NCBI GenBank assembly: GCA_021819025.1
Contig: JAKASN010000005.1
Location: forward strand, 1-15,976
DNA length: 15,976 bases
Reading direction: 5' to 3'
From: Actinomycetes bacterium
GTDB taxonomy: Bacteria; Actinomycetota; Acidimicrobiia; Acidimicrobiales; Acidimicrobiaceae
Shown: positions 4,459-15,976 of the stretch, piece after piece
Layout of the letters: the number at the start of each line of letters is the position of its first letter
Numbering within the stretch: position 1 is the stretch's first letter
Position numbers and translations under genes: made by a program
Notes under the pieces: model-generated
Databases searched by the model: none
What the model was told of the DNA's origin: nothing
Seen by the model: only the letters and a program-made list of their open reading frames with translations

Positions 4459-6888
4459 TCAGTTGCGGATTTCGCCGCTTCGGTAGGGCCTGAAGTCGCT
4501 GGTGTCAAAGCGGGCTCGCTTGGGCGCTTCGCCAAGGGGATCGAGAAGTCCGAGGAGGCGCCCCACTGCGTCAGGGGCGATGGGGCGTGAAAATAAGTAG
4601 CCTTGGCCAGTTTCGACCTCTTCATCCTTGAGACGCTGACGCTGGAGGTCAGTTTCGATGCCCTCCGCGACGGTTTCGAGCCCGAGAACTTTGCCGAGTT
4701 GGGCGAGAGTATGTATTAGCGCCATGGACTCTTGGGAATCTCCAACCTCTGATACGAAGGATCGGTCAATCTTGAGTACGTCAACTGGGAACTGGCGTAG
4801 ATAGGCGAGCGAGGAGTAGCCGGTGCCGAAGTCGTCGATGGCAAGGCGGACCCCGAGCGACTTGAGCTGCTGGAGGCGTACCGCGACCATCTCGGCATCT
4901 CTCATGAGGACGGTCTCGGTCATTTCCAGGATGAGCAGTTCAGCTTCAAAGCCGCTCTCTTCAAGGGCGTCGCGGACGTCATCGAGGAGCTGGGGGACTT
5001 CGAGTTGTTTCCCCGAGACGTTGATGGCCACGCTGATGCGGTGTCCCTCAGCGCACCACGCTGCACCTTGTCGGCACGCTTGGTGCAGTATCTTGCGGCC
5101 CAGAGGTATGATAAGGCCAGTCTCTTCGAGTTCGTGGATGAAGCTTTCGGGCTCGATGACTCCCTTTTCGCGATGGTTCCAGCGCAGCAATGCTTCGACT
5201 CCGGTGATGGCGTTGCTCTCGAGGTTGAAGATGGGCTGGTACAAAAGGAAAAATTCGTCGCAGGCCAAGGCGATGTCCAACTCCACGCCGAGCATATGGC
5301 GGCTGGTGACCGCAGACTGCATTTCGGTGGCAAAGATCACCGCACGGCGCTTACCAGCGGCCTTGGCCCGATAGAGCGCGATGTCGGCATCGCGGAGTAG
5401 CTCTTCGGGCCTGGCGCGGTCACCCATGGCGATGCCGATGCTGGCATTCACGCGAAAGGTAGCGTCGCTTCCGGGGATCTCAAAGGGCGTGCTCAGTACG
5501 TCGAGGATGCGATCGGAGACGACTTCGATCCCAGCGTCAAGTGAGGGCCCCTCCACCAGGATGACGAACTCGTCGCCTCCGAGGCGCCCTACGGTGTCCT
5601 CTCCGCGGATGGTGCCCGCCAGCCTCGCCCCCACTGCGGCGAGCAGTGCATCGCCAGTGCGATGCCCCATGGTGTCGTTGACGCCTTTGAAGTCGTCGAG
5701 GTCCAAAAAGAGTACCGCACAAGAGAGGCCATGGCTTCTCGCGCGCGCCAGCATGTGCTCGATACGATCGAGTATCAATGCCCGGTTGGGCAGACCGGTG
5801 AGCGAGTCGTGCAGAGCCTGGTAGCGCAGTTCTTCGGTGCGAGTGCGGACCAGCTCTTCGGCCCTGGCGCGACCTGAACCGAGCAAATCGATGACCCCGG
5901 CTAAAAAGACGCTGAGTGCGATGCCGCCGAGGAGCAGCGCCAGCGCATCTCCGTCTCCAATGATGCTTGCGCTCGAGACGTACCCGTAGGTCTGAGTCCT
6001 CCAGCCTTGATGGAGGTTGGTGGTAACTAGATGCGATCCCTTCGGCGCATTGCCGTCGCTGATGGTGACATTTGAGGTGGGGGTGTGATAAACCAGCGAC
6101 AATGCGATGCCGGGGTGGGAGTCCAGGATGCGACCCAGCATCACCTTCGGGTCGAGCACCACGTTCATCCATCCGATGAATGCTTTGCGTCGTGCCCCAA
6201 CCGTCGCTGGGAGCGCTCCATTCGCGTAGATGGGATCGATGACCTCCACATAGGTCTTCTTGGCGATGGCGAACGGAGCGTAAGCGTAAATTGCCAAGTC
6301 CCGGGTGGTCTGGCTCACGGCGCCCAAGGCACCCGCGCAATAGTCGAGTCCGAGAGGCGGCGCGTCCTTGACAACCCGTGTTGCTTGGAGCTGAGCAAGG
6401 CAGTAGTAAGGCCGGGATCCCGAGGGAGTTACTCCCAGTCTTGGGCCCCCAGGCACTTCTGTGGCACCCCAAGTGGCGTGGCGCGCTTGAAATTGCGCCA
6501 GCTGCGCGCCTGGGACGACGGTCACCATCGCTGAGCTGATGATCTCCGGAAAGCGATCCAGCGCCCATATCGCGCGCACCCGCTGTGTAAATTGTGCTTC
6601 GCTGATTGATGGGTTGTCAGCGACAAACGCCGCAGCGCCGATGAGAAAGTCCTGTTCGCGTGCGATATTGAACGCGACGTTGGAGGTTATCTCGCCTGCG
6701 GTGGCTTGTAGCGCCCGCTGTGAAGTGGCGGCGTCGTTATTAGCGAGGCTCTGTGCGCCAAGAGATGAGACCACCACGCCCACAGCGACAACCAACGCAG
6801 CCACTGCGGTCCAGGCGTGAAACTTGCTCCTGATAGTGCTGAGCAAGGAGCTCACGCGGCTCACCTTCGCTCTCGAAATCCGCGCCAT
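4459..6888 (-). CDS. CHASE-GGDEF-EAL cyclic-di-GMP synthase/phosphodiesterase, membrane bound
   Basis: 809 residues from the ATG at 6888. Layout: short basic N-terminus, membrane helix (about 26-43), extracytoplasmic CHASE-type sensor (about 63-300), second helix (about 315-336), GGDEF domain (about 358-518) and EAL domain (about 538-783). The GGDEF motif is intact (RLGGDEF, 437-441), with an RxxD product-inhibition site (RGED, 428-431) five residues before it. The EAL domain keeps GVEALLRW (EAL 565-567), EMTE, DDFGTGYSSL (685-694), LKID and EGIET, so both making and breaking c-di-GMP look possible; the net direction cannot be read. A GTG at 6984 gives a 32-residue extension without a good ribosome site. 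It sits divergent from nrdR and splits the usual lexA-LysM-nrdR order. Confidence 0.9.
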   Translation of the reverse strand: MARISRAKVSRVSSLLSTIRSKFHAWTAVAALVVAVGVVVSSLGAQSLANNDAATSQRALQATAGEITSNVAFNIAREQDFLIGAAAFVADNPSISEAQFTQRVRAIWALDRFPEIISSAMVTVVPGAQLAQFQARHATWGATEVPGGPRLGVTPSGSRPYYCLAQLQATRVVKDAPPLGLDYCAGALGAVSQTTRDLAIYAYAPFAIAKKTYVEVIDPIYANGALPATVGARRKAFIGWMNVVLDPKVMLGRILDSHPGIALSLVYHTPTSNVTISDGNAPKGSHLVTTNLHQGWRTQTYGYVSSASIIGDGDALALLLGGIALSVFLAGVIDLLGSGRARAEELVRTRTEELRYQALHDSLTGLPNRALILDRIEHMLARARSHGLSCAVLFLDLDDFKGVNDTMGHRTGDALLAAVGARLAGTIRGEDTVGRLGGDEFVILVEGPSLDAGIEVVSDRILDVLSTPFEIPGSDATFRVNASIGIAMGDRARPEELLRDADIALYRAKAAGKRRAVIFATEMQSAVTSRHMLGVELDIALACDEFFLLYQPIFNLESNAITGVEALLRWNHREKGVIEPESFIHELEETGLIIPLGRKILHQACRQGAAWCAEGHRISVAINVSGKQLEVPQLLDDVRDALEESGFEAELLILEMTETVLMRDAEMVAVRLQQLKSLGVRLAIDDFGTGYSSLAYLRQFPVDVLKIDRSFVSEVGDSQESMALIHTLAQLGKVLGLETVAEGIETDLQRQRLKDEEVETGQGYLFSRPIAPDAVGRLLGLLDPLGEAPKRARFDTSDFRPYRSGEIRN

Positions 6889-7020
6889 AGCGCCACCGGT
6901 GGCCACCTTTTCATTGATGCCAAAAAGAGTATTTTCGACGCAAAGTGCCCTGGGGTTGAGCGATAATACGCCCAACTGGCGCACCCCGCGAGCCCTTGAT
7001 GCTCGGTTTTGCCCGCTTGC

Positions 7021-7645: not shown

Positions 7646-8083
7646 TTGACTTCGCGTAAAGTTTCAGAATCTGTTGAGGTGGGTGCGTCAGCGGCGACGG
7701 TCTTCGATCTCCTCGCCGATGTGCGCCAGCACGCCGCCTTTGACGGATCCGCCACGGTAAAAGGAACGATCGATGCTCCGCCGCGACTCTTTAAAGGCGC
7801 CAAGTTCCGCATGTCGATGCGCTTGATCGTGCCCTATCGGACCACCAACGAAGTCGTGGAGTTCGAAGAGGGGCGCCTCATCGCATGGCGCCACTTTGGC
7901 CATCACATCTGGCGCTACGAACTTGAGGATCTCGGGGATTCCAGGTGTCGAGTCACCGAGACCTTTGATTTTGAGGGTGCGCGCAGTCCGCTCGCCCTTG
8001 AGCTTGCCAATGCGCCTGCTCGCAACCGCAGCGCCATCAAGGCGACTCTGCTGAACCTGCAACTTCGATTCGGTGCCGAGTAG
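7646..8083 (+). CDS. SRPBCC (START/polyketide cyclase-like) family protein
   Basis: 145 residues from a TTG; an upstream GTG at 7571 would make 170. The chain follows the SRPBCC plan of a helix-grip ligand-binding fold: an opening strand (RKVSESVEVGASAATVFDLLADV), the first helices, a curved sheet including VVEFEEGRLIAWRHFG and YELEDLGDSRCRVTETFDFEG, and a long C-terminal helix (NRSAIKATLLNLQLRF). Such proteins bind small hydrophobic ligands; the ligand cannot be told and no catalytic residue is evident. It starts 90 nt after nrdR on the same strand and may be co-transcribed. Base use is like the core genes, and it is the last clearly intact gene before a decayed stretch. Confidence 0.75.
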   Translation: MTSRKVSESVEVGASAATVFDLLADVRQHAAFDGSATVKGTIDAPPRLFKGAKFRMSMRLIVPYRTTNEVVEFEEGRLIAWRHFGHHIWRYELEDLGDSRCRVTETFDFEGARSPLALELANAPARNRSAIKATLLNLQLRFGAE

Positions 8084-9139
8084 CCAAGCGCCTTCTCATG
8101 TGAGTCCCTAAGGGCGAGTTGGCTCGCCTACCTGATGGCTGGGAAGTTTTTGGGAGCTGGGACGAAGGAGAGGTTTACTTGGTCGTGCTCGCCTATTTGG
8201 CCTCGTGGTCACCGTGACGGTCTTTGGGGCTTGGGGCGCGAGCTGCACTCGGGGCCCAGCTGTGAGCTGGCGCTACCACGAGCACAGAAAAAAGACCCCC
8301 TAGCCCTAGGTGAGCTGCTTGGCGCCCTGGGGTAGGCCTGTTATGGGCGATTCCCGAGCTCAGGTGCGGGGCTTATCTTCCTGGTGGGGGCGGATCCCAG
8401 GGTGACGATGATGAAGTGCCGGGGTTGCTCCTCGGTGCGGGCTTAGCGCAGGATCCGCCAAAGACAGGCGCGGTGGCCCGATGCGCTCATCATCGAGGTC
8501 TAGGGCACTGGCGCGGCGGCCGCTGGGATTGCGGTCGCTCTTGGGCTGCAATCGGGCCTCGTGCTCGCTAACAAGCCCACGTCGCGATGCGAGTTGGGCG
8601 TCGAAGGGCTCTTTATCGCTCGCAAGGGCTAAGATGGAAGTTGTAATCTAGGGTGTTTCAGATATGTCCCACCTCGGATTTCCGCTCTAGCACGGGCACC
8701 ATTGCGGTGACTCAAGAGGCAAATCTCACGTGCGAGTTCAAACAAACCTTTTGTCTTTCATTTTGGCGTCCCGTCTCATTTTTTGATTCGACGATGCCGT
8801 TGCCACTTTTGGCAGATAGAGCCCGAAGGTGCGTCGAGAAAAAATTACCTATCACAAAGCCAAGCAAGGTCGACGAGTTCGTCCGGTGGCCCAGGAGCTG
8901 CTTGTTTTTCCAATTTTTAATTCCCTTGGGGCGAGGCCATCAACCTCAAGCTCGATTGCCTCGCGCGATCGAGCCGCAAAGCTCGAAGGCGTGATCGCCG
9001 CGGCGAGTGATTCGTCGTTGGGGCTCTACGAGAGGGCCGCGTTGTTGGCGTCTAAGCGGTAATCCTAGGGCATGAGCTGGGCGTATCACCGGAGCCGGGC
9101 TTGTTCGGTTCCGAGGTGATATTGCGAATCTACTACTAA
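8084..9139. other. Gene-poor, probably decayed stretch between the SRPBCC and globin-EAL genes
   Basis: About 1 kb without a convincing gene. Frames are broken by stops yet stretches look once-coding, notably 8357-8632 (see separate entry) and 8970-9062, which reads GVIAAASDSSLGLYERAALL before a TAA. A hairpin with CGGAGCC and GGTTCCG arms sits near 9090-9115. The 66-residue frame at 8135-8335 lacks a ribosome site and is not called. Confidence 0.4.
8357..8632 (+). pseudogene. Possible decayed fragment resembling DXP reductoisomerase (Dxr)
   Basis: One frame with two stops (TAG at 8444 and 8501) reads GLIFLVGAD..., then DALIIEV-stop-GTGAAAAGIAVALGLQSGLVLANK and ends ...GVEGLFIARKG-stop. The block of small hydrophobics followed by LANK recalls the NADPH/substrate segment of Dxr (typically ...G..GL..T.AAL..G..LALANKESLV), but the ESLV part is missing and the rest does not match. 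This is a by-eye resemblance only; it might be a decayed piece of another Rossmann-type enzyme. Confidence 0.25.
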
Positions 9140-9175
9140 TTGGCACTTGGAAGATGGTGCAGTGCGGGTGATGTT

Positions 9176-11308
9176 GTGAATCTAAAGAAAAATGACCTTG
9201 AGTTAAATAGTGTTGCGATGAGGCGACGAAGCCGTGCCGTCGACGCTGCAATCGAAGCTTTCATGGCACGTGCCAATGCCAAACTCGCCCAAGAAGCGGG
9301 ACCCGCCAAAGTCTTGGGCTTTCTCAACCAAGGTGAGACCTCGAGCTTTTGGGCTTCGCAGGAGCGATTTCTCCGCGATCTCATCGACCACCGCGGCACG
9401 AGAGATGAGATGGACAAGTACGCCAGGCGGCTCGGTTATGCCCATGCCATGGTTGGTGTCAAGCCAAGTTGGGTGCTGGGGATGATCCCCCTTTTTGGCG
9501 AGCTCTTCCATGAAGTAGTCAAGGCGATCCAATTCGCCCCGTGCGAGAGCGACTTGACCCTAAATGCCATGTCAGAGCGCCTTGGCGCTGCCCTTCGTGC
9601 CATGGTCTACGTAGATGAGAGCATCGACGATCTCCTCGCGGATTGCATCGACGAGGTGAATGCCGCGATTTCCGCAGCCACCACCAGCGTGGATCTCATC
9701 TGCAGCACCATCGCCGCAATCCAAGCTTTCGCGGGCGTCGCCAGCGTAGCCTATGGGCGCGCCGATGGCAAGGGGAACCTCTTATACGAATACTTTGAGG
9801 GTGCGGAGTTCGCACGCTACCTCGAACTTGTCACAAGTGGCGCTGCGGCTGCGATGACTTCGTTGCCCGGGGCCGCGACGGGGCACGGTCCCTCGGGACG
9901 AGCGTGGCGCAGTGGGCAAATCCAACATTCGTCGTCCTTCTCTACGGACCCCACCATGGCGCCATGGCAGCAAGTGGCCGAGAGGCTCGGTCTGCGCAGT
10001 TTGTTGGCGTTGCCGATCTTAAACAGCACCGGGGACTCTATCGGCGTGGTGAACATCTACTCGAAGTGGCCGGGCTACTTCGCGCCCCACAAGCGCTACC
10101 GCGCCTTTGCCTACATCCAACAGGCGATGAGCGCTGCTTTGGTGCAACTCGACGCGGGACCAGTGGTTCCCGCCTCCCAGCGCGACAAGTTCCGCGAAAT
10201 GTTGCGCGGTGACTCCCTTGAAATGCACTTTCAACCCATCGTCGACCTACGCAGCGGAAATATTGTCAAGCTCGAAGCACTGGCGCGATTGCGAGGCCAC
10301 GCCGGAGTGTTGATCACCCCAGCGCAGTTCATGGGGGCTTTTGGATCTGAGGATCTCTACGTGCTTTTCCAGCGCGGCTTGGCGATCTCCATCGCGGTGC
10401 TAGAACGCCTCGAGTCCCAGGGTATCAAGACCGATGTGTCGGTGAACCTCCCCACTCAAGGGACCAAGGATCAGCGCTACTACGAGGCGGTGGCCCTAGC
10501 ATTGGCGTCCTCGAGTGTCGCGGCTGAGCGTCTCACCCTGGAGTTGACTGAAGAGGGAAAGCTCAGTGAGACCACCCTCGATGAGGCACCTGAGCTATGT
10601 CGAATGCGCTCTCTGGGTGTGCTGATCGCCCAAGACGACCTTGGCGCTGGCTACAGTTCTCTGCTGCGCCTCGAGCGCTTTGGCTTTCACGACGTCAAGA
10701 TCGACCAGGAGCTCATTCGCGGGGCGGGGGACGCCCGTAACGCTTTGGATCTCATTCAGCACCTCACCGGGCTTGCTCATGACCTGGGCATCGGCGTCGT
10801 CGTCGAAGGCCTCGAAGGTCCCGCGCTCCTCGAAGCCGCCGCGATCATGGGAGCAGACTACGGTCAAGGCTATGGCATTGCCCGACCAATGCCCGAAAGC
10901 GAGATCGCAGCTTTTTTCGCCGACTTTCGCTGGAGCACTGACGTCACCTCGCCGGTTACAGCCCTTGGCGCCCTCGCGGCAATGCGGCGCTGGTCGCGCC
11001 AGTTGCTGGCGATGGGCAACTACGGGAATCTCATCGAAAGCTCTATGCCCATCGATGAATTGAAGCATCTCCTGCGCGGCTTTCCCGAACTCGACCTCGA
11101 AGGCCACTTCTCGCGCCATTACCACGGTAGCGCCGCTGCACGGGCGCTTTCCTTGGCCGAGCTCGAAGAGAAGCTATCGGGTCTATTCGCGAGCGAGCCT
11201 CGCCCCGTCCGAGGCGCTTCGCACCCCGAGCGCCGCCGCGACCCGAACAAGGGAGATAGAAGCCGGCTTTGGGAAACTACTGAGAGGTGTCCGCAGCGAT
11301 TGCTCTGA
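9176..11308 (+). CDS. Globin-like sensor - GAF - EAL cyclic-di-GMP phosphodiesterase
   Basis: 710 residues from the GTG at 9176 (GGGTGAT just upstream); TTG 9140 and ATG 9218 are alternatives. No signal peptide or membrane helix, so cytosolic. Residues about 20-150 resemble the globin domain of globin-coupled sensors: KYARRLGYAHAMVGVKPSWVLG fits the pattern H-x-RIGL-P-x-W-Y, with His90 at the proximal haem position. A GAF-like domain follows (about 173-323, ending GVVNIYSKWPGYFAPHKRYRAFAYIQQA). The EAL domain (about 333-578) keeps Glu367 of EAL, Asn424, Glu456, Asp487-Asp488 (QDDLGAGYSSL), Lys508, Glu544 and Gln564, so it is likely active. A further ~130 residues at the C-terminus match nothing I know. 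There is no GGDEF domain. Expected role: c-di-GMP hydrolysis controlled by O2, NO or redox; the sensor call rests on one motif. Confidence 0.85.
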   Translation: MNLKKNDLELNSVAMRRRSRAVDAAIEAFMARANAKLAQEAGPAKVLGFLNQGETSSFWASQERFLRDLIDHRGTRDEMDKYARRLGYAHAMVGVKPSWVLGMIPLFGELFHEVVKAIQFAPCESDLTLNAMSERLGAALRAMVYVDESIDDLLADCIDEVNAAISAATTSVDLICSTIAAIQAFAGVASVAYGRADGKGNLLYEYFEGAEFARYLELVTSGAAAAMTSLPGAATGHGPSGRAWRSGQIQHSSSFSTDPTMAPWQQVAERLGLRSLLALPILNSTGDSIGVVNIYSKWPGYFAPHKRYRAFAYIQQAMSAALVQLDAGPVVPASQRDKFREMLRGDSLEMHFQPIVDLRSGNIVKLEALARLRGHAGVLITPAQFMGAFGSEDLYVLFQRGLAISIAVLERLESQGIKTDVSVNLPTQGTKDQRYYEAVALALASSSVAAERLTLELTEEGKLSETTLDEAPELCRMRSLGVLIAQDDLGAGYSSLLRLERFGFHDVKIDQELIRGAGDARNALDLIQHLTGLAHDLGIGVVVEGLEGPALLEAAAIMGADYGQGYGIARPMPESEIAAFFADFRWSTDVTSPVTALGALAAMRRWSRQLLAMGNYGNLIESSMPIDELKHLLRGFPELDLEGHFSRHYHGSAAARALSLAELEEKLSGLFASEPRPVRGASHPERRRDPNKGDRSRLWETTERCPQRLL

Positions 11309-12687
11309 GGGCTGCCCAAGGCGAGGAGGTGTTATCCCCGCACAAGCTCATCTTTGCGTTAGCGACAGAGCGAAGTGAGCTCGGATCCCTTTTCGACGAG
11401 GTGCTTCTCTAGGCCAAGGAGTGCTCGCCGCTTCGATTGCCACGGTGCTCCAACGCGGCGCCCCCGGGGCTCTTCAGCGCAGAGCCGCTCCGAGTCTGAA
11501 CGCCGCAGCCCGATCCGCCTTTTTTCGTTACATCCCACGCGATGTGCGCGTGGACGCCTTGCCGAACGTCGGTGGCCGATCTCGCCGATCGCCGCATGGA
11601 TCCCGTGTGCCGGAATGTTTTAGAGTTCCCCACGGCGCGAGAGCCGCACAACCTTCGGGGCCGCCCGTTGAAAAGATAGCGATGCGTTGATAATCGGGAC
11701 TTTCTCGTTGTCGAAACTGACCCCCGACGTGTCGGATGCATTTGGGCTGATGGCTCTTGAGGGATGTGGCGACCTGGTCTCAGATACCCTGGGGCGCGAA
11801 ATGTTCGCACAGGGATAAGGAATGCAATTTGGCCATTACCGCGACCAACGCGATGCCAAGGTGGCGATGAGGTTATTTTTTGACTCTACTGCTGGAAGAG
11901 CGCCGACGGCGAACTCGGCAGATGGTATCTAATAGTGGAGTGTTGCGACGGTTTAGCTAGCCTAATGATCCTTTGATATCGAGAGCGCTACGAGGAATAG
12001 AATCGCAGAGGAGCACCTCGTTAACGGTTTAGAAGCTAGGTACTTAGTTTGCCACTCATGACATCGCCAAACGGCGCGGCCCTGCCATGAACAGCTCGAT
12101 ACCGCTTACCCCTGGTTTCGGCTAAAAGAAAAGAAGAAAAGAAGCCGCGTTAGGGGTCGGATTGTGTGTAGATTCACTTGCCGCGTAGCGGCGGTCATGG
12201 CACTTAGGAAATGTAACAAAAACTAGAGGCAAAGGAGGCGTACCATCATCGCCAGTTCCAGGAATACCCAAAAGCGAAGCCAGACCCCCACCTGGCCTTA
12301 GAGGTGCCAACTGTCGAGCCTGGGCGTCCGCTCCGTCGAAAATAGACTGTGGTCGCCAACTGCTGTGTTCGAATTTCATCGTTGTTTTGTTCGCGGCTTA
12401 ACCGCTTAGTGGGTTTGCCCCGACATTGAGGTGAAGCATAAGCGCGTTTAATAGGAGCTTGGGCGTTCTGGAGCGCACTCAAATCGAAAGCCGTCGCCGC
12501 GCGGTTGTAGTCTTTGGGGTGACTTCGGGCCGCAGGGGTTGCGCCCAATGTATTTCGTAATTGTCTTGCTCCACCTGGCATCGGATAAATCGCGCCTTTG
12601 GCAGGTGATAAATGCCTCTCAGAGTTGACGCCGGGTCAATTGCATTTAGCAACTATTCAGTTCCGGGGCAGATCTTGCCAGCTGATA
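11309..12687. other. Gene-poor stretch, partly decayed coding DNA
   Basis: Nearly 1.4 kb with no convincing gene on either strand. Between about 11400 and 11820 protein-like stretches move between frames (one ends VADLADRRMDPVCRNVLEFP, another FLVVETDPRRVGCIWADG, a third AFGLMALEGCGDLVSDTLGR), which suggests a frameshifted old gene, but I cannot assign it. From about 11900 the DNA is more AT-rich, with a purine-only tract near 12124-12144 and an AAAGGAGG at about 12232-12239 that is not followed by a usable start. No RNA gene was recognised. Confidence 0.4.
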
Positions 12688-12716
12688 TTGACAGATTGTG
12701 TTATCCAAACTATCTT
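12688..12716 (+). promoter_or_regulatory. Sigma70-like promoter for the TasA-like/signal peptidase module
   Basis: A perfect -35 TTGACA (12688-12693), a 17-nt spacer and -10 TATCTT (12711-12716, four of six consensus bases). It would give a leader of roughly 105-110 nt before the ATG at 12831. It is the best promoter match found in the window. Confidence 0.6.
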
Positions 12717-12818
12717 AGCCCTCGGGCGAGCAATGCTTGAAGGTCGTAGGTGGTCGCCTGACCTTTACAGCGCAAATGGCGAAACCGGCGCCCGTACTTA
12801 GTCATGCAAAGCATCGAA

Positions 12819-12824
12819 GAAGGA
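12819..12824 (+). promoter_or_regulatory. Ribosome binding site deciding the TasA-like gene start
   Basis: GAAGGA six bases before the ATG at 12831. The in-frame ATG at 12804 has no comparable site and would put nine polar residues ahead of the signal peptide. Confidence 0.65.
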
Positions 12825-12830
12825 ACGGTA

Positions 12831-13592
12831 ATGAAGGTTTTTGATCATATCGGCATCAAGCTGGCGGCACTCGCCATAACAGGAGGCACAGGAGTTATGC
12901 TCTTTGCTTCCTCTCCAGTTAGCACTGACTTTACGGCGGTCAGCTCCCAGCATTTGGGGGCACAGGGAGCGTTTGTAGGCCTCAACGTAACGCAGGGTTC
13001 GTTCAATGTATCCAACCTGGTACCCGGTGGGCCGGCCAATACTCCCCAAGACATTACTTTTGAGAATACCGGTACTGTTCCTGAAGCACTGAATATTATC
13101 TTTGGTAGCATTACCACGAACGTAGCCGGTCTGACTCTCAGCGGTACGCCTTTGCTCCCTGCTGGCACGGATCCGTTGACTCAGCTTGAGATTGTTGTAA
13201 CGCCAGCTAATTCAGGAGCAGTCACAGCTTTCGGATCCGCTGCAACGCAGACCTTCAACTTCAGCCAGATTACGGGTCAGTCCGGAGTCTCTTTCTCACA
13301 GGCTAACGGTGTGACAACAATTTCTGGGATAGCACCGCAGCATCTGGCGACCGTTCTTCCCGGTACCAGCAATGAAATCGAGGTTGCCGTCTCCTTCCAG
13401 CTCGCGGCTGACGGGGGAACTGCTCCGTCTTACATAAATCCGGATGGAACTGTCGGTATTTACGGTAATGACTGGATGAATGCCAATATCCAAATCCCTT
13501 ATATGGTTCAGGCGGAGGCCGGCGGCAGCGCTAGCAATCCGGTTGCCACGCCGTTTGAGCCCTCAGCGGTGTACCAGCCGACTGTGAGTTGA
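12831..13592 (+). CDS. Secreted TasA/camelysin-like protein with SipW-type signal peptide
   Basis: 253 residues. N-terminus MKVFDHIGIK then a hydrophobic core LAALAITGGTGVMLFA (about 11-26), like the signal peptides cut by SipW-type peptidases. The mature chain follows the TasA-family opening: a short strand (GAQGAFVGLNV), then FNVSNLVPGG and ITFENTGTVPEALNI, comparable to the NLSNLKPGD and F-FENNGS motifs of TasA. The rest is beta-rich and full of Thr, Ser, Gly, Ala and Asn. From residue 11 onward there is no Lys, Arg or Cys. It lacks the C-terminal membrane anchor or sorting signal of a pilin. Its partner is the signal peptidase downstream. Likely an extracellular fibre or surface protein; the family call is by pattern, not search. 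More A/T at third positions than the dap genes suggests a different history. Confidence 0.7.
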   Translation: MKVFDHIGIKLAALAITGGTGVMLFASSPVSTDFTAVSSQHLGAQGAFVGLNVTQGSFNVSNLVPGGPANTPQDITFENTGTVPEALNIIFGSITTNVAGLTLSGTPLLPAGTDPLTQLEIVVTPANSGAVTAFGSAATQTFNFSQITGQSGVSFSQANGVTTISGIAPQHLATVLPGTSNEIEVAVSFQLAADGGTAPSYINPDGTVGIYGNDWMNANIQIPYMVQAEAGGSASNPVATPFEPSAVYQPTVS

Positions 13593-13636
13593 TGCGCACT
13601 AACGTACTGCAATCCAAGGACGATTGAAACGGAGTT

Positions 13637-13676
13637 GCCGGGTCCGATCGATCCGAATGGAGAGATCGGATCCGGC
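13637..13676 (+). promoter_or_regulatory. Hairpin between the TasA-like and signal peptidase genes
   Basis: Arms 13637-13649 (GCCGGGTCCGATC) and 13664-13676 (GATCGGATCCGGC) pair over 13 bp with one G-U wobble and a 14-nt loop. There is no T-run after it, so it resembles an attenuator, a processing site or an mRNA-stabilising stem rather than a full terminator. It lies about 45 nt after the first gene and 158 nt before the second, and could keep the structural protein in excess over the peptidase. Confidence 0.5.
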
Positions 13677-13820
13677 CCGCTCGTGGCAGATATCTTCGTG
13701 CAGCGGTCCAAGGGTAGCGCTGTGTATTTTGGCTCCATCGAGTCAAGGACTAGGAGCTACGCTTGCCGAGCAGAGGCAATCAAATAACGACAAAATGCCG
13801 AGGTGGTGGGGTGGAGTTCA

Positions 13821-13825
13821 TGGAG
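13821..13825 (+). promoter_or_regulatory. Ribosome binding site supporting the signal peptidase GTG start
   Basis: TGGAG with 8-nt spacing to GTG 13834. ATG 13795 and TTG 13624 are in frame but poorly preceded, and the longer versions would translate through the hairpin region. Confidence 0.45.
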
Positions 13826-13833
13826 ATGGCAGC

Positions 13834-14430
13834 GTGCAAACGGATATTGTGAGGCTCTTCTCGAGAGAGTGGCCATGCATCGTGAGACGGACTGTTGTAG
13901 TCGTGCTGATAGCCCTATTGGCAGTTGGAGGGCTTTTTGTGGCTTCGACGAGTCACAGTTACGTTACCACGCCATCGATGTGGCCCAATATACCTCCGGG
14001 ATCTTTGATATTCGTGAGGAGCGAACCGTCGTATCATGTCGGTGAAGTAATCGAGTTTCGCGCTAATGGTTTGGTATGGGCCCATCGATTGATTGGGATA
14101 ACGCATGCTGGTGATTATGTCACCAAGGGTGATAATCCCGCAAATGTACCGGATATTTTCGTTCCGCCCGTCACAAAACAGGACGTCATCGGTGCCGTTG
14201 TCGCCGCGCCGCGGTTTCTTGGCTTTCCAATCCTGGCGATGAAGCATCCGAGCTATGCGTTGCATTGGTTTGTTACGGAGTTAGGCACGGCGGGCAAACT
14301 GGCTGTACTGATGATAGAGCTTCTGTTGTTTGCCTGGTTATTGAAATATCGACGGCGCACTGACGCGAAATCAGCAATGAGGGGAATTGTGGTATCACCA
14401 ACTGCATCCTTGGATAAGACTCGGAGTTGA
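13834..14430 (+). CDS. Signal peptidase I, SipW/SEC11 (S26B) type
   Basis: 198 residues from GTG 13834 (in-frame ATG 13795 would add 13). Membrane serine protease that removes signal peptides on the outer face. Layout: short basic N-terminus, membrane helix (about 20-38, RTVVVVLIALLAVGGLFVA), catalytic domain, second helix (about 155-170, AVLMIELLLFAWLL) and basic tail (KYRRR). Box B is TTPSMWPNIPPGSLIFV with nucleophile Ser48. The box that holds the general-base Lys in ordinary bacterial LepB reads WAHRLIG here, so His84 replaces it, as in archaeal/ER SEC11 and Bacillus SipW. YVTKGDN supplies Asp100, and Asp107 follows. Placed after a TasA-like gene, it is probably the dedicated peptidase for that protein. 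Codon use (ATA, GTA, AGA, TTA) is unlike the dap cluster. Confidence 0.85.
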   Translation: MQTDIVRLFSREWPCIVRRTVVVVLIALLAVGGLFVASTSHSYVTTPSMWPNIPPGSLIFVRSEPSYHVGEVIEFRANGLVWAHRLIGITHAGDYVTKGDNPANVPDIFVPPVTKQDVIGAVVAAPRFLGFPILAMKHPSYALHWFVTELGTAGKLAVLMIELLLFAWLLKYRRRTDAKSAMRGIVVSPTASLDKTRS

Positions 14431-14434
14431 CTTG

Positions 14435-14536
14435 ATGGCGCGCGCTCAGCGTCGTCGCATACTGGCAATAATCGGAGGCATTCCCACCGGGCGTGTGCAC
14501 ACAAAAAAATATCGCATCCTCAAGACAGGTACTTAG
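14435..14536 (+). CDS. Very small basic ORF after the signal peptidase (doubtful)
   Basis: 33 residues from an ATG only four bases after the signal peptidase stop, with GGAG eight bases upstream, so it is well placed for coupled translation. The N-terminus is MARAQRRR followed by a short hydrophobic ILAIIGGI and then a basic tail ending YRILKTGT. It could be a small membrane-associated peptide, or the start of a third gene of the module cut short: it opens like a signal-anchor but stops at 14534. No family is recognised. Confidence 0.3.
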   Translation: MARAQRRRILAIIGGIPTGRVHTKKYRILKTGT

Positions 14537-15626
14537 TGAAATTAGCTCGCGTGTTGGATGCTCAAGTGCGCATGTTCGACCCGGAATAAAGCAGGCGGCG
14601 CATGGGCGGAAGAGACTAATAATTGCGAATGCGACTAATGCAAGGTTACGAGCTGGATCGTGGAAAGGCGTGAGCGGTTGGGGATAGGTGACCCACCATA
14701 TAATGCCCGGAAAGTGTTACTCAGATAAATTTTGTGTCGGAAAATCAATAGGAAGTTTCCGAGTGCTGCTGCGTACTAGATGTATCGCAGTCGATAGCGC
14801 AAAGAAGTGACGAGTTTTCGCTGGGTTTTGTGGCGATACGATAGAATTCCGTGGGTCGTGCGTTACCCGCTGCGTGTTGCGTTTGTGCGCGATCCTCTCT
14901 CAAATTGAAGGTAACCCTGATGGATCGAGGGTTGCCTCGCTCTCAAATTGCCGGTGTGGGTGTTTTGACATCCATGGTTGGCGCCACATATGCAGTGGTG
15001 AGAGTAAGGCAGAGTGTTGCCTAGGGGTACGCTCTCCAACGTCCTAGACCGACTTGATGACTGGTCGCAACGCCAGGACCGACCGGTGGGCGCTCCCCGC
15101 CAATAGCGGTGATCCAGGGAAACGACGCAAGCGGCGTGCCATGGCGCATTCCCAATTGCAGTTTTACAAACCAATTCCAAACAGACTGCACCGTGTTCCT
15201 TGCACCAAAAGTACGCGAGCCTCGCCAGTGTTCTTTGCCGTGTGTTCTTGGCGCTTCCAGAAGCGGTCTCGTAAATTATAGATTCGAGGGAGACCACGCA
15301 TTCGTTCATCGGGCAGATCCGGGGTGGTGCGCGGTGCTGGTTATGGGTCGTTGGAGCTTCCACCGCCACGGAGTCCGCATGTGTTTGTATTCGCCAGGCG
15401 CGCTAGGAATGTGCGTTGTAGGCGAACGGGCTTGCGAGTGAATTCGAAGGGGAACTTTTTCGCGACCAAGATGCAGCTAAATCGGGTACTACGAAGCCGC
15501 GAATAGTTGCGGATTGATCTCGGTCGACAGGTTCTAGAAATCGACGCAGTGTGCAGGCTCTTGGGCCGGTAAACGGTGCGGAGCAAGTGAGATACCTGAA
15601 ATTCTTACGGAGGTAAGTGACGCGGA
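14537..15626. other. Stretch without convincing genes downstream of the secretion module
   Basis: About 1.1 kb of mixed-composition DNA. The longest frame (complement of 14863-15369, 168 residues) is rich in Cys, His, Trp and Arg, has no recognisable motif or ribosome site and looks like chance. No tRNA, transposase or rRNA was seen. A repeat-flanked hairpin at 14897-14950 is listed separately. Confidence 0.4.
14897..14950. repeat. Hairpin flanked by an 11-bp direct repeat
   Basis: CTCTCAAATTG occurs at 14897-14907 and again at 14940-14950. Between them lies an inverted repeat, AGGTAACCCT (14909-14918) and AGGGTTGCCT (14928-14937), which pairs over 10 bp with one G-U wobble and a 9-nt loop. 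Direct repeats directly flanking a palindrome could be the footprint of a tiny insertion with target duplication, or a protein-binding site. Only one copy is visible in the window. Confidence 0.45.
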
Positions 15627-15976
15627 TTACATTTGGATGGCCTCGCGGAGCGCTTGATGGATCTTGCCATTGCTGGCGACGAGCATTCTGGCACTCGGCT
15701 CAGCGTCGCTGCCGCCTGTAACGCTTCCGCCGGCTTCGGTGACGATCAGCGCGCCCGCTAGGTAGTCCCAGGGCCATAGGCCGCTCTCGTAATAGCCGTC
15801 GAGTTCTCCAGCGGCAACCATACAGAGATCCAGAGACGCCGCGCCGGCGCGGCGAATGTCGCGTACCTTGCCAAGGATGGCCGCGAGTATCCGTCCCTGG
15901 GTGACGCGCATCTCGTCGGAGTAGGAAAAGCCCGTTCCGATCAGCGCGTTGGAGAGGCGATCCTGGTCAGAGATCG
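15627..15976 (-). CDS. Inositol monophosphatase family protein (N-terminus beyond window)
   Basis: Mg2+-dependent, Li+-sensitive type phosphatase of the IMPase fold (SuhB, histidinol-phosphatase HisN and related enzymes). Only the C-terminal 116 residues are visible; the frame is open to the window edge. Seen: LIGTGFSYSDEMRV, the helix RDIRRAGAASLDLCMVAAGELDGYYE and the second metal/substrate motif LWPWDYLAGALIVTEAGGSVTG, whose WD Asp is a metal ligand. The first metal motif (DPIDGT type) would lie outside the window. Substrate cannot be assigned from this half. It is followed by the gene-poor stretch, with no operon partner in view. Confidence 0.9.
   Translation of the reverse strand, partial: ISDQDRLSNALIGTGFSYSDEMRVTQGRILAAILGKVRDIRRAGAASLDLCMVAAGELDGYYESGLWPWDYLAGALIVTEAGGSVTGGSDAEPSARMLVASNGKIHQALREAIQM

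Follow-up and report, generated by a model that had tools for sequence, protein, structure and literature searches.

An acid-loving actinobacterium that oxidises iron has two adjacent genes. Do they encode an extracellular fibre protein and the signal peptidase dedicated to it? The pair lies on contig JAKASN010000005.1 of assembly GCA_021819025.1 (Acidimicrobiaceae). This contig, in its entirety, is the 15,976-nucleotide stretch analysed here (hereafter, the window), and the genome is 74% complete in 543 contigs. The pair consists of two open reading frames (ORFs) on the same strand, gene 1 and gene 2 (Table 1), each with a plausible ribosome-binding site, which agrees with the two-gene layout proposed in an earlier note made from the sequence alone. 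We consider it probable (about 0.7) that the two genes form an export unit, in which a jelly-roll subunit of the TasA/camelysin superfamily and an S26B signal peptidase serve to form an extracellular fibre. Such a module may be "self-contained", the term used in that note.

Judged by its sequence, gene 2 belongs to the S26B signal peptidases, as had been claimed, and is SipW-like without being an equivalog of Bacillus SipW. It passed the model of archaeal/endoplasmic reticulum (ER)-type signal peptidases (TIGR02228; 56 bits, cut-off 51.85), and a profile of six of its relatives matches human SEC11C (E 7.1e-8) and SEC11A (E 1.4e-7). On NF046067, the Bacillus SipW equivalog model, it scores 28.7 bits against a cut-off of 190. 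SEC11A and SEC11C of the signal peptidase complex have the S26B catalytic domain in common with gene 2; unlike them, gene 2 is bacterial, adjoins one putative substrate gene and has its own C-terminal region. S26B enzymes use Ser-His-Asp residues, with His replacing the Lys of P-type enzymes. Ser48, His84 and Asp107 are invariant in all ten aligned S26B proteins, and they probably form the catalytic triad of the family. Of the residues named in the earlier note, Ser48 and His84 hold. Asp100 is kept in nine of the ten proteins (Glu in one), which makes Asp107 the likelier third member of the triad.

The gene 1 protein has no usable match in Pfam or NCBIfam. The profile search suggested earlier came back negative: none of 12 family members matched the TasA/camelysin model PF12389 (Peptidase_M73) at the Pfam gathering score, or TIGR04088, the model of SipW-dependent signal peptides. 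In the window's genome, PF12389 was absent at E 0.001 and TIGR04088 gave no matches. Two other matches, to Pfam Adeno_PIX (E 0.024, under the cut-off) and to a hexon-interlacing protein in the PDB (E 0.1), were rejected as noise. In a large protein search, the single gene 1 sequence found one relative besides itself and the family alignment found six, one of them annotated as "hypothetical protein" in Acidithrix sp. C25. Comparison of profile with profile recovered the TasA pattern that the family models did not: hhalign aligned the gene 1 family with camelysin/TasA-type proteins of Acidimicrobiia at 95.8% over 169 columns, while 100 shuffles reached at most 0.7%. This supports a remote homology of gene 1 to these proteins over the domain.

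The N-terminus of gene 1 is strongly conserved, with G18, G19, L24, F25, T32 and F34 invariant in the alignment (12/12). Where ten TasA-type proteins of other Acidimicrobiia have an A-x-F box with invariant Ala27, gene 1 has T-x-F. Matched by eye, the T32-x-F34 box may correspond to the A-x-F box with Thr in place of Ala27; hhalign places F25 rather than F34 at that position. Cleavage may fall after residue 30 or 32, again as read by eye. In TasA the P2' position is Phe, and signal peptidase I of E. coli cleaves the protein poorly (PMC10269814). Export by the twin-arginine translocation (Tat) route was considered and rejected: by eye, the twin arginine is absent from the window's protein, and in the relatives P0005 and P0007 an RR is present without the complete Tat motif.

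Pairing of the genes was surveyed in 397 sampled genomes of the order, using a peptidase-branch model built from six of the eight genomes in which the branch occurs (G570 and G493 are independent finds). These eight score 246-341 bits, and the next best score is 55.1. All eight are included among the nine genomes with a match to the gene 1 (fibre) family. The ninth, G484, has only a longer, weak relative (42.7 bits). In G493 the fibre-family match covers a fragment of 42 residues where a contig ends (60.9 bits). The genes are adjacent in six of the eight, in tandem in five (the window, G214, G417, G571 and G535) and divergent in one (G387). In G570 and G493 each gene lies at the end of a separate contig, as a break in the assembly would produce. 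The co-occurrence proposed as a check was therefore found, and a TasA-like protein with a dedicated S26B peptidase is supported as a conserved unit. G214 corresponds to Acidithrix ferrooxidans Py-F3, of the same genus as the window, and carries the pair (L060). There it is surrounded by sugar ABC transporter and helicase-like genes, and in G417 and G571 by transketolase and kinase-like genes (labels by eye from translations).

Longer, weaker TasA-like relatives occur in G417 (L076, 6338-7288), G571 (L079, 6154-7071) and G484 (L082, 6756-7559). Those of G417 and G571 are located away from the pair, have a C-terminal hydrophobic segment and a basic tail, and have no S26B match within the fetched stretch; they could possibly be surface anchors.

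How might such a unit work? The Sec pathway would carry the gene 1 product across the membrane via its N-terminal Sec-type signal, which gene 2, as a membrane S26B peptidase, would cut off with Ser48 as nucleophile, His84 and probably Asp107. In TasA, residues 28-38 act as the donor strand (PMC9674648); by analogy, the freed N-terminus of gene 1 would probably insert as a donor strand into the next subunit, and the subunits would probably assemble into an extracellular fibre of a biofilm or streamer matrix. The family and conserved residues of the peptidase, the remote homology of gene 1 and the co-occurrence of both genes are the supported part of this scheme; we infer the cleavage of gene 1 by gene 2, the cut position, fibre formation and the role of the fibre.

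Two predicted models of gene 1 were compared with known structures. Foldseek with model 1 and VIA-align with both models rank TasA first, and the archaeal bundling pilus 7ueg is not among the matches listed in either case; gene 1 probably has a TasA-like fold. This part of the structure search agrees with the TasA pattern of the earlier note. Two observations slightly lower our confidence in the TasA-type reading. Foldseek with model 2 does not have TasA among the 50 matches listed and gives 7ueg at rank 28 (E 0.028), and in the fold comparison jelly rolls with no relation to TasA score almost as well as the TasA rows. Within the genus of G417 and G571, the pair occurs in two of five sampled genomes, which speaks against a tight link to a matrix role.

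Alternatively, gene 1 could encode a jelly-roll protein of the cell surface, or an adhesin, that is exported and depends on the S26B peptidase but does not polymerise, "TasA-like" then describing only its fold. We regard this as unlikely, since the N-terminal segment is conserved and the peptidase dedicated, as in the TasA arrangement, and the homology runs along the domain. Rather more doubtful is a fibre whose nearest kin would be the archaeal bundling pili of the AbpA/AbpX type and not Bacillus TasA. This reading overlaps with the TasA-type fibre, given the structural relation to TasA reported for those pili (cited in PMC9674648). The model 2 search, the match of the peptidase to the archaeal-type model and the contact of a PF12389/TIGR04088-type profile of Acidimicrobiia with AbpX (E 0.02) favour such a pilus, but the structural match to 7ueg is weak, the same profile hits TasA at 9.3e-9, and the other three fold searches put TasA first. 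It is very improbable that the two genes stand side by side without any relation and that the peptidase is a general housekeeping enzyme: the gap with its strong hairpin does not require a shared transcript, but every peptidase-branch genome carries the fibre gene, the surroundings vary by genus, and four of six sampled same-genus genomes are without both genes.

The preferred reading, a TasA-type fibre with its own peptidase, is not remarkable for lying outside Firmicutes, contrary to the emphasis of the earlier note. Among 247 sampled Acidimicrobiia genomes, 25 have PF12389 (24 above the cut-off) and nine have TIGR04088. An S26B peptidase was found in the fetched flanks of seven of the ten best PF12389 loci (two-sequence profile, E <=0.01); two of the three loci without one are close to the end of a contig. 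The arrangement of fibre protein and S26B peptidase is already present in Acidimicrobiia, and what differs here is a separate branch of both genes. The PF12389 proteins, some with a TIGR04088 signal, are of the same class as gene 1, are remotely homologous to it and often stand beside S26B peptidases. Their partner peptidases, unlike gene 2, form a clade apart from this branch (99/98; only four outside rows, with long branches), and profile scores are at least 211 bits for this branch versus at most 51 for the PF12389 partners. The trees resolve little, with good support for two of nine and two of eight inner branches. In them the peptidase of the window joins those of G417 and G571 (94/98), not that of same-genus A. 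ferrooxidans, with long branches flagged. The pair appears to belong to a divergent TasA-SipW branch that current protein family models miss. In the partial literature covered, no paper title dealt with TasA, camelysin or SipW in Actinobacteria or Acidimicrobiia, which does not show absence in print.

Like tapA-sipW-tasA of B. subtilis, the locus would combine a jelly-roll matrix protein, an N-terminal export signal and an ER-type signal peptidase alongside (PMC9674648 and PMC10269814). Unlike that operon, it has the substrate gene first and then the peptidase, its gene 1 is too distant in sequence for Pfam or NCBIfam models, the conserved box reads T-x-F instead of A-x-F, and no third gene was recognised beside the pair when ORFs were scanned against Pfam. 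Six other ORFs from 11309 to 15626 have no Pfam match; TapA was not sought by sequence or elsewhere in the genome. A bolder and speculative version sees an orthogonal TasA/SipW branch in Acidimicrobiia, a co-diverged, mobile two-gene cassette in which the cleavage box would have moved from A-x-F to T-x-F, leaving the substrate to be cut by its own peptidase alone, and which would provide the protein scaffold of acid-mine streamers and iron snow.

Was the pair acquired? Its composition, described earlier as different from that of core genes, is a real but mild outlier. GC content at third codon positions (GC3) is 0.531 for gene 1 and 0.523 for gene 2 versus 0.634-0.716 for ten other window genes, and values at or below those of the pair occur in 2 of 61 ORFs of at least 150 codons from 13 other contigs (median 0.63; two masked stretches are excluded from the count and included in the median). 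The pair is present in two of six sampled same-genus genomes and absent from the other four (89-95% complete). In two same-genus genomes, G374 and G498, just 28 bases separate the matched genes for SRPBCC and inositol monophosphatase; the window has 7.5 kb at this place. A. ferrooxidans has three other genes between NrdR and the monophosphatase, and its pair is located elsewhere. Horizontal acquisition is possible, as the earlier note suggested, because of this presence in two of six genomes, the 7.5 kb absent from two relatives and the low GC3; the alternative is loss in relatives. No exact direct repeats of at least 10 bases were found between 7951-8350 and 15351-15700.

The 241-base gap between the genes has a whole-gap fold z of -3.98, and a 50-nucleotide piece of it reaches -32.6 kcal/mol. 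The gaps of the four other tandem pairs also have strong hairpins, with differing sequences. Across the five, whole-gap z ranges from -1.7 to -4.4, the weakest (G535) being equalled by 13 of 200 shuffles. Relative to 80 other gene ends, in a control that used mononucleotide shuffles, energy and z each place three of the five gaps beyond the 10th percentile, but the two measures pick different sets of three. The fold of the A. ferrooxidans gap is unremarkable in its first 150 bases. These results point weakly to a conserved hairpin between the fibre and peptidase genes.

Table 1. Features of the gene pair and its surroundings in the window.
Feature	Position	Strand	Basis and remarks
Promoter-like site TTGACA-17-TATCTT	12688..12716	+	~115 bases upstream of gene 1 start codon; not above chance
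AGGA ribosome-binding core	12821..12824	+	6 bases before ATG 12831; sequence
Gene 1, TasA-like protein with export signal and predicted beta-sandwich, 253 aa, ATG	12831..13592	+	family alignments, hhalign, models, fold comparison
Putative signal peptide of gene 1, residues 1-32	12831..12926	+	hydrophobic residues 11-25, conserved T32-x-F34 box; read by eye
Hairpin between both genes, 13-bp stem, without T run	13637..13676	+	fold computation; possible attenuator or terminator
GGAG ribosome-binding core	13822..13825	+	8 bases before GTG 13834; sequence
Gene 2, S26B (SipW/SEC11-type) signal peptidase, 198 aa, GTG	13834..14430	+	model match, conserved residues
7.5-kb stretch with pair and GAF-EAL gene, absent from two same-genus relatives	8084..15626		locus comparison (L135, L136)

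The N-termini of homologs align at the gene 1 start given in Table 1, not at 12804. A promoter had also been reported. The site exists, but it is at chance level, with one such site found versus 2.0 +/- 1.3 in shuffles. Both flanks of the pair (11309-12830 and 14431-15626) are stretches without recognisable genes; seven ORFs of the gene-poor gaps gave no Pfam matches, and a scan of the window found no tRNA or Rfam features. The 7.5-kb stretch also contains a GAF-EAL gene (9140-11308), which precedes the pair on the same strand and encodes a possible cyclic di-GMP phosphodiesterase, with a protoglobin-like N-terminus (match below the cut-off). A CHASE-GGDEF-EAL protein (4459-6984) sits between the LysM and NrdR genes of the window; in A. 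ferrooxidans (L137), no such gene was seen in the corresponding interval.

In culture, the long filaments of A. ferrooxidans Py-F3 become entwined and give gelatinous growths that resemble streamers (PMC4187193), and Acidithrix sp. C25 comes from iron snow aggregates (PMC8223813). A role of the pair in a biofilm or streamer matrix fits these habits, as a correlation only. If it is true, a family with a member publicly labelled "hypothetical protein" would acquire a role that can be tested, as part of the matrix that holds acid streamers and iron-rich aggregates, and the presence of the pair in A. ferrooxidans Py-F3 makes the idea testable in a cultured strain. The close partnership of the two genes would also offer a natural system for following the joint change of an S26B peptidase and the protein it cuts.
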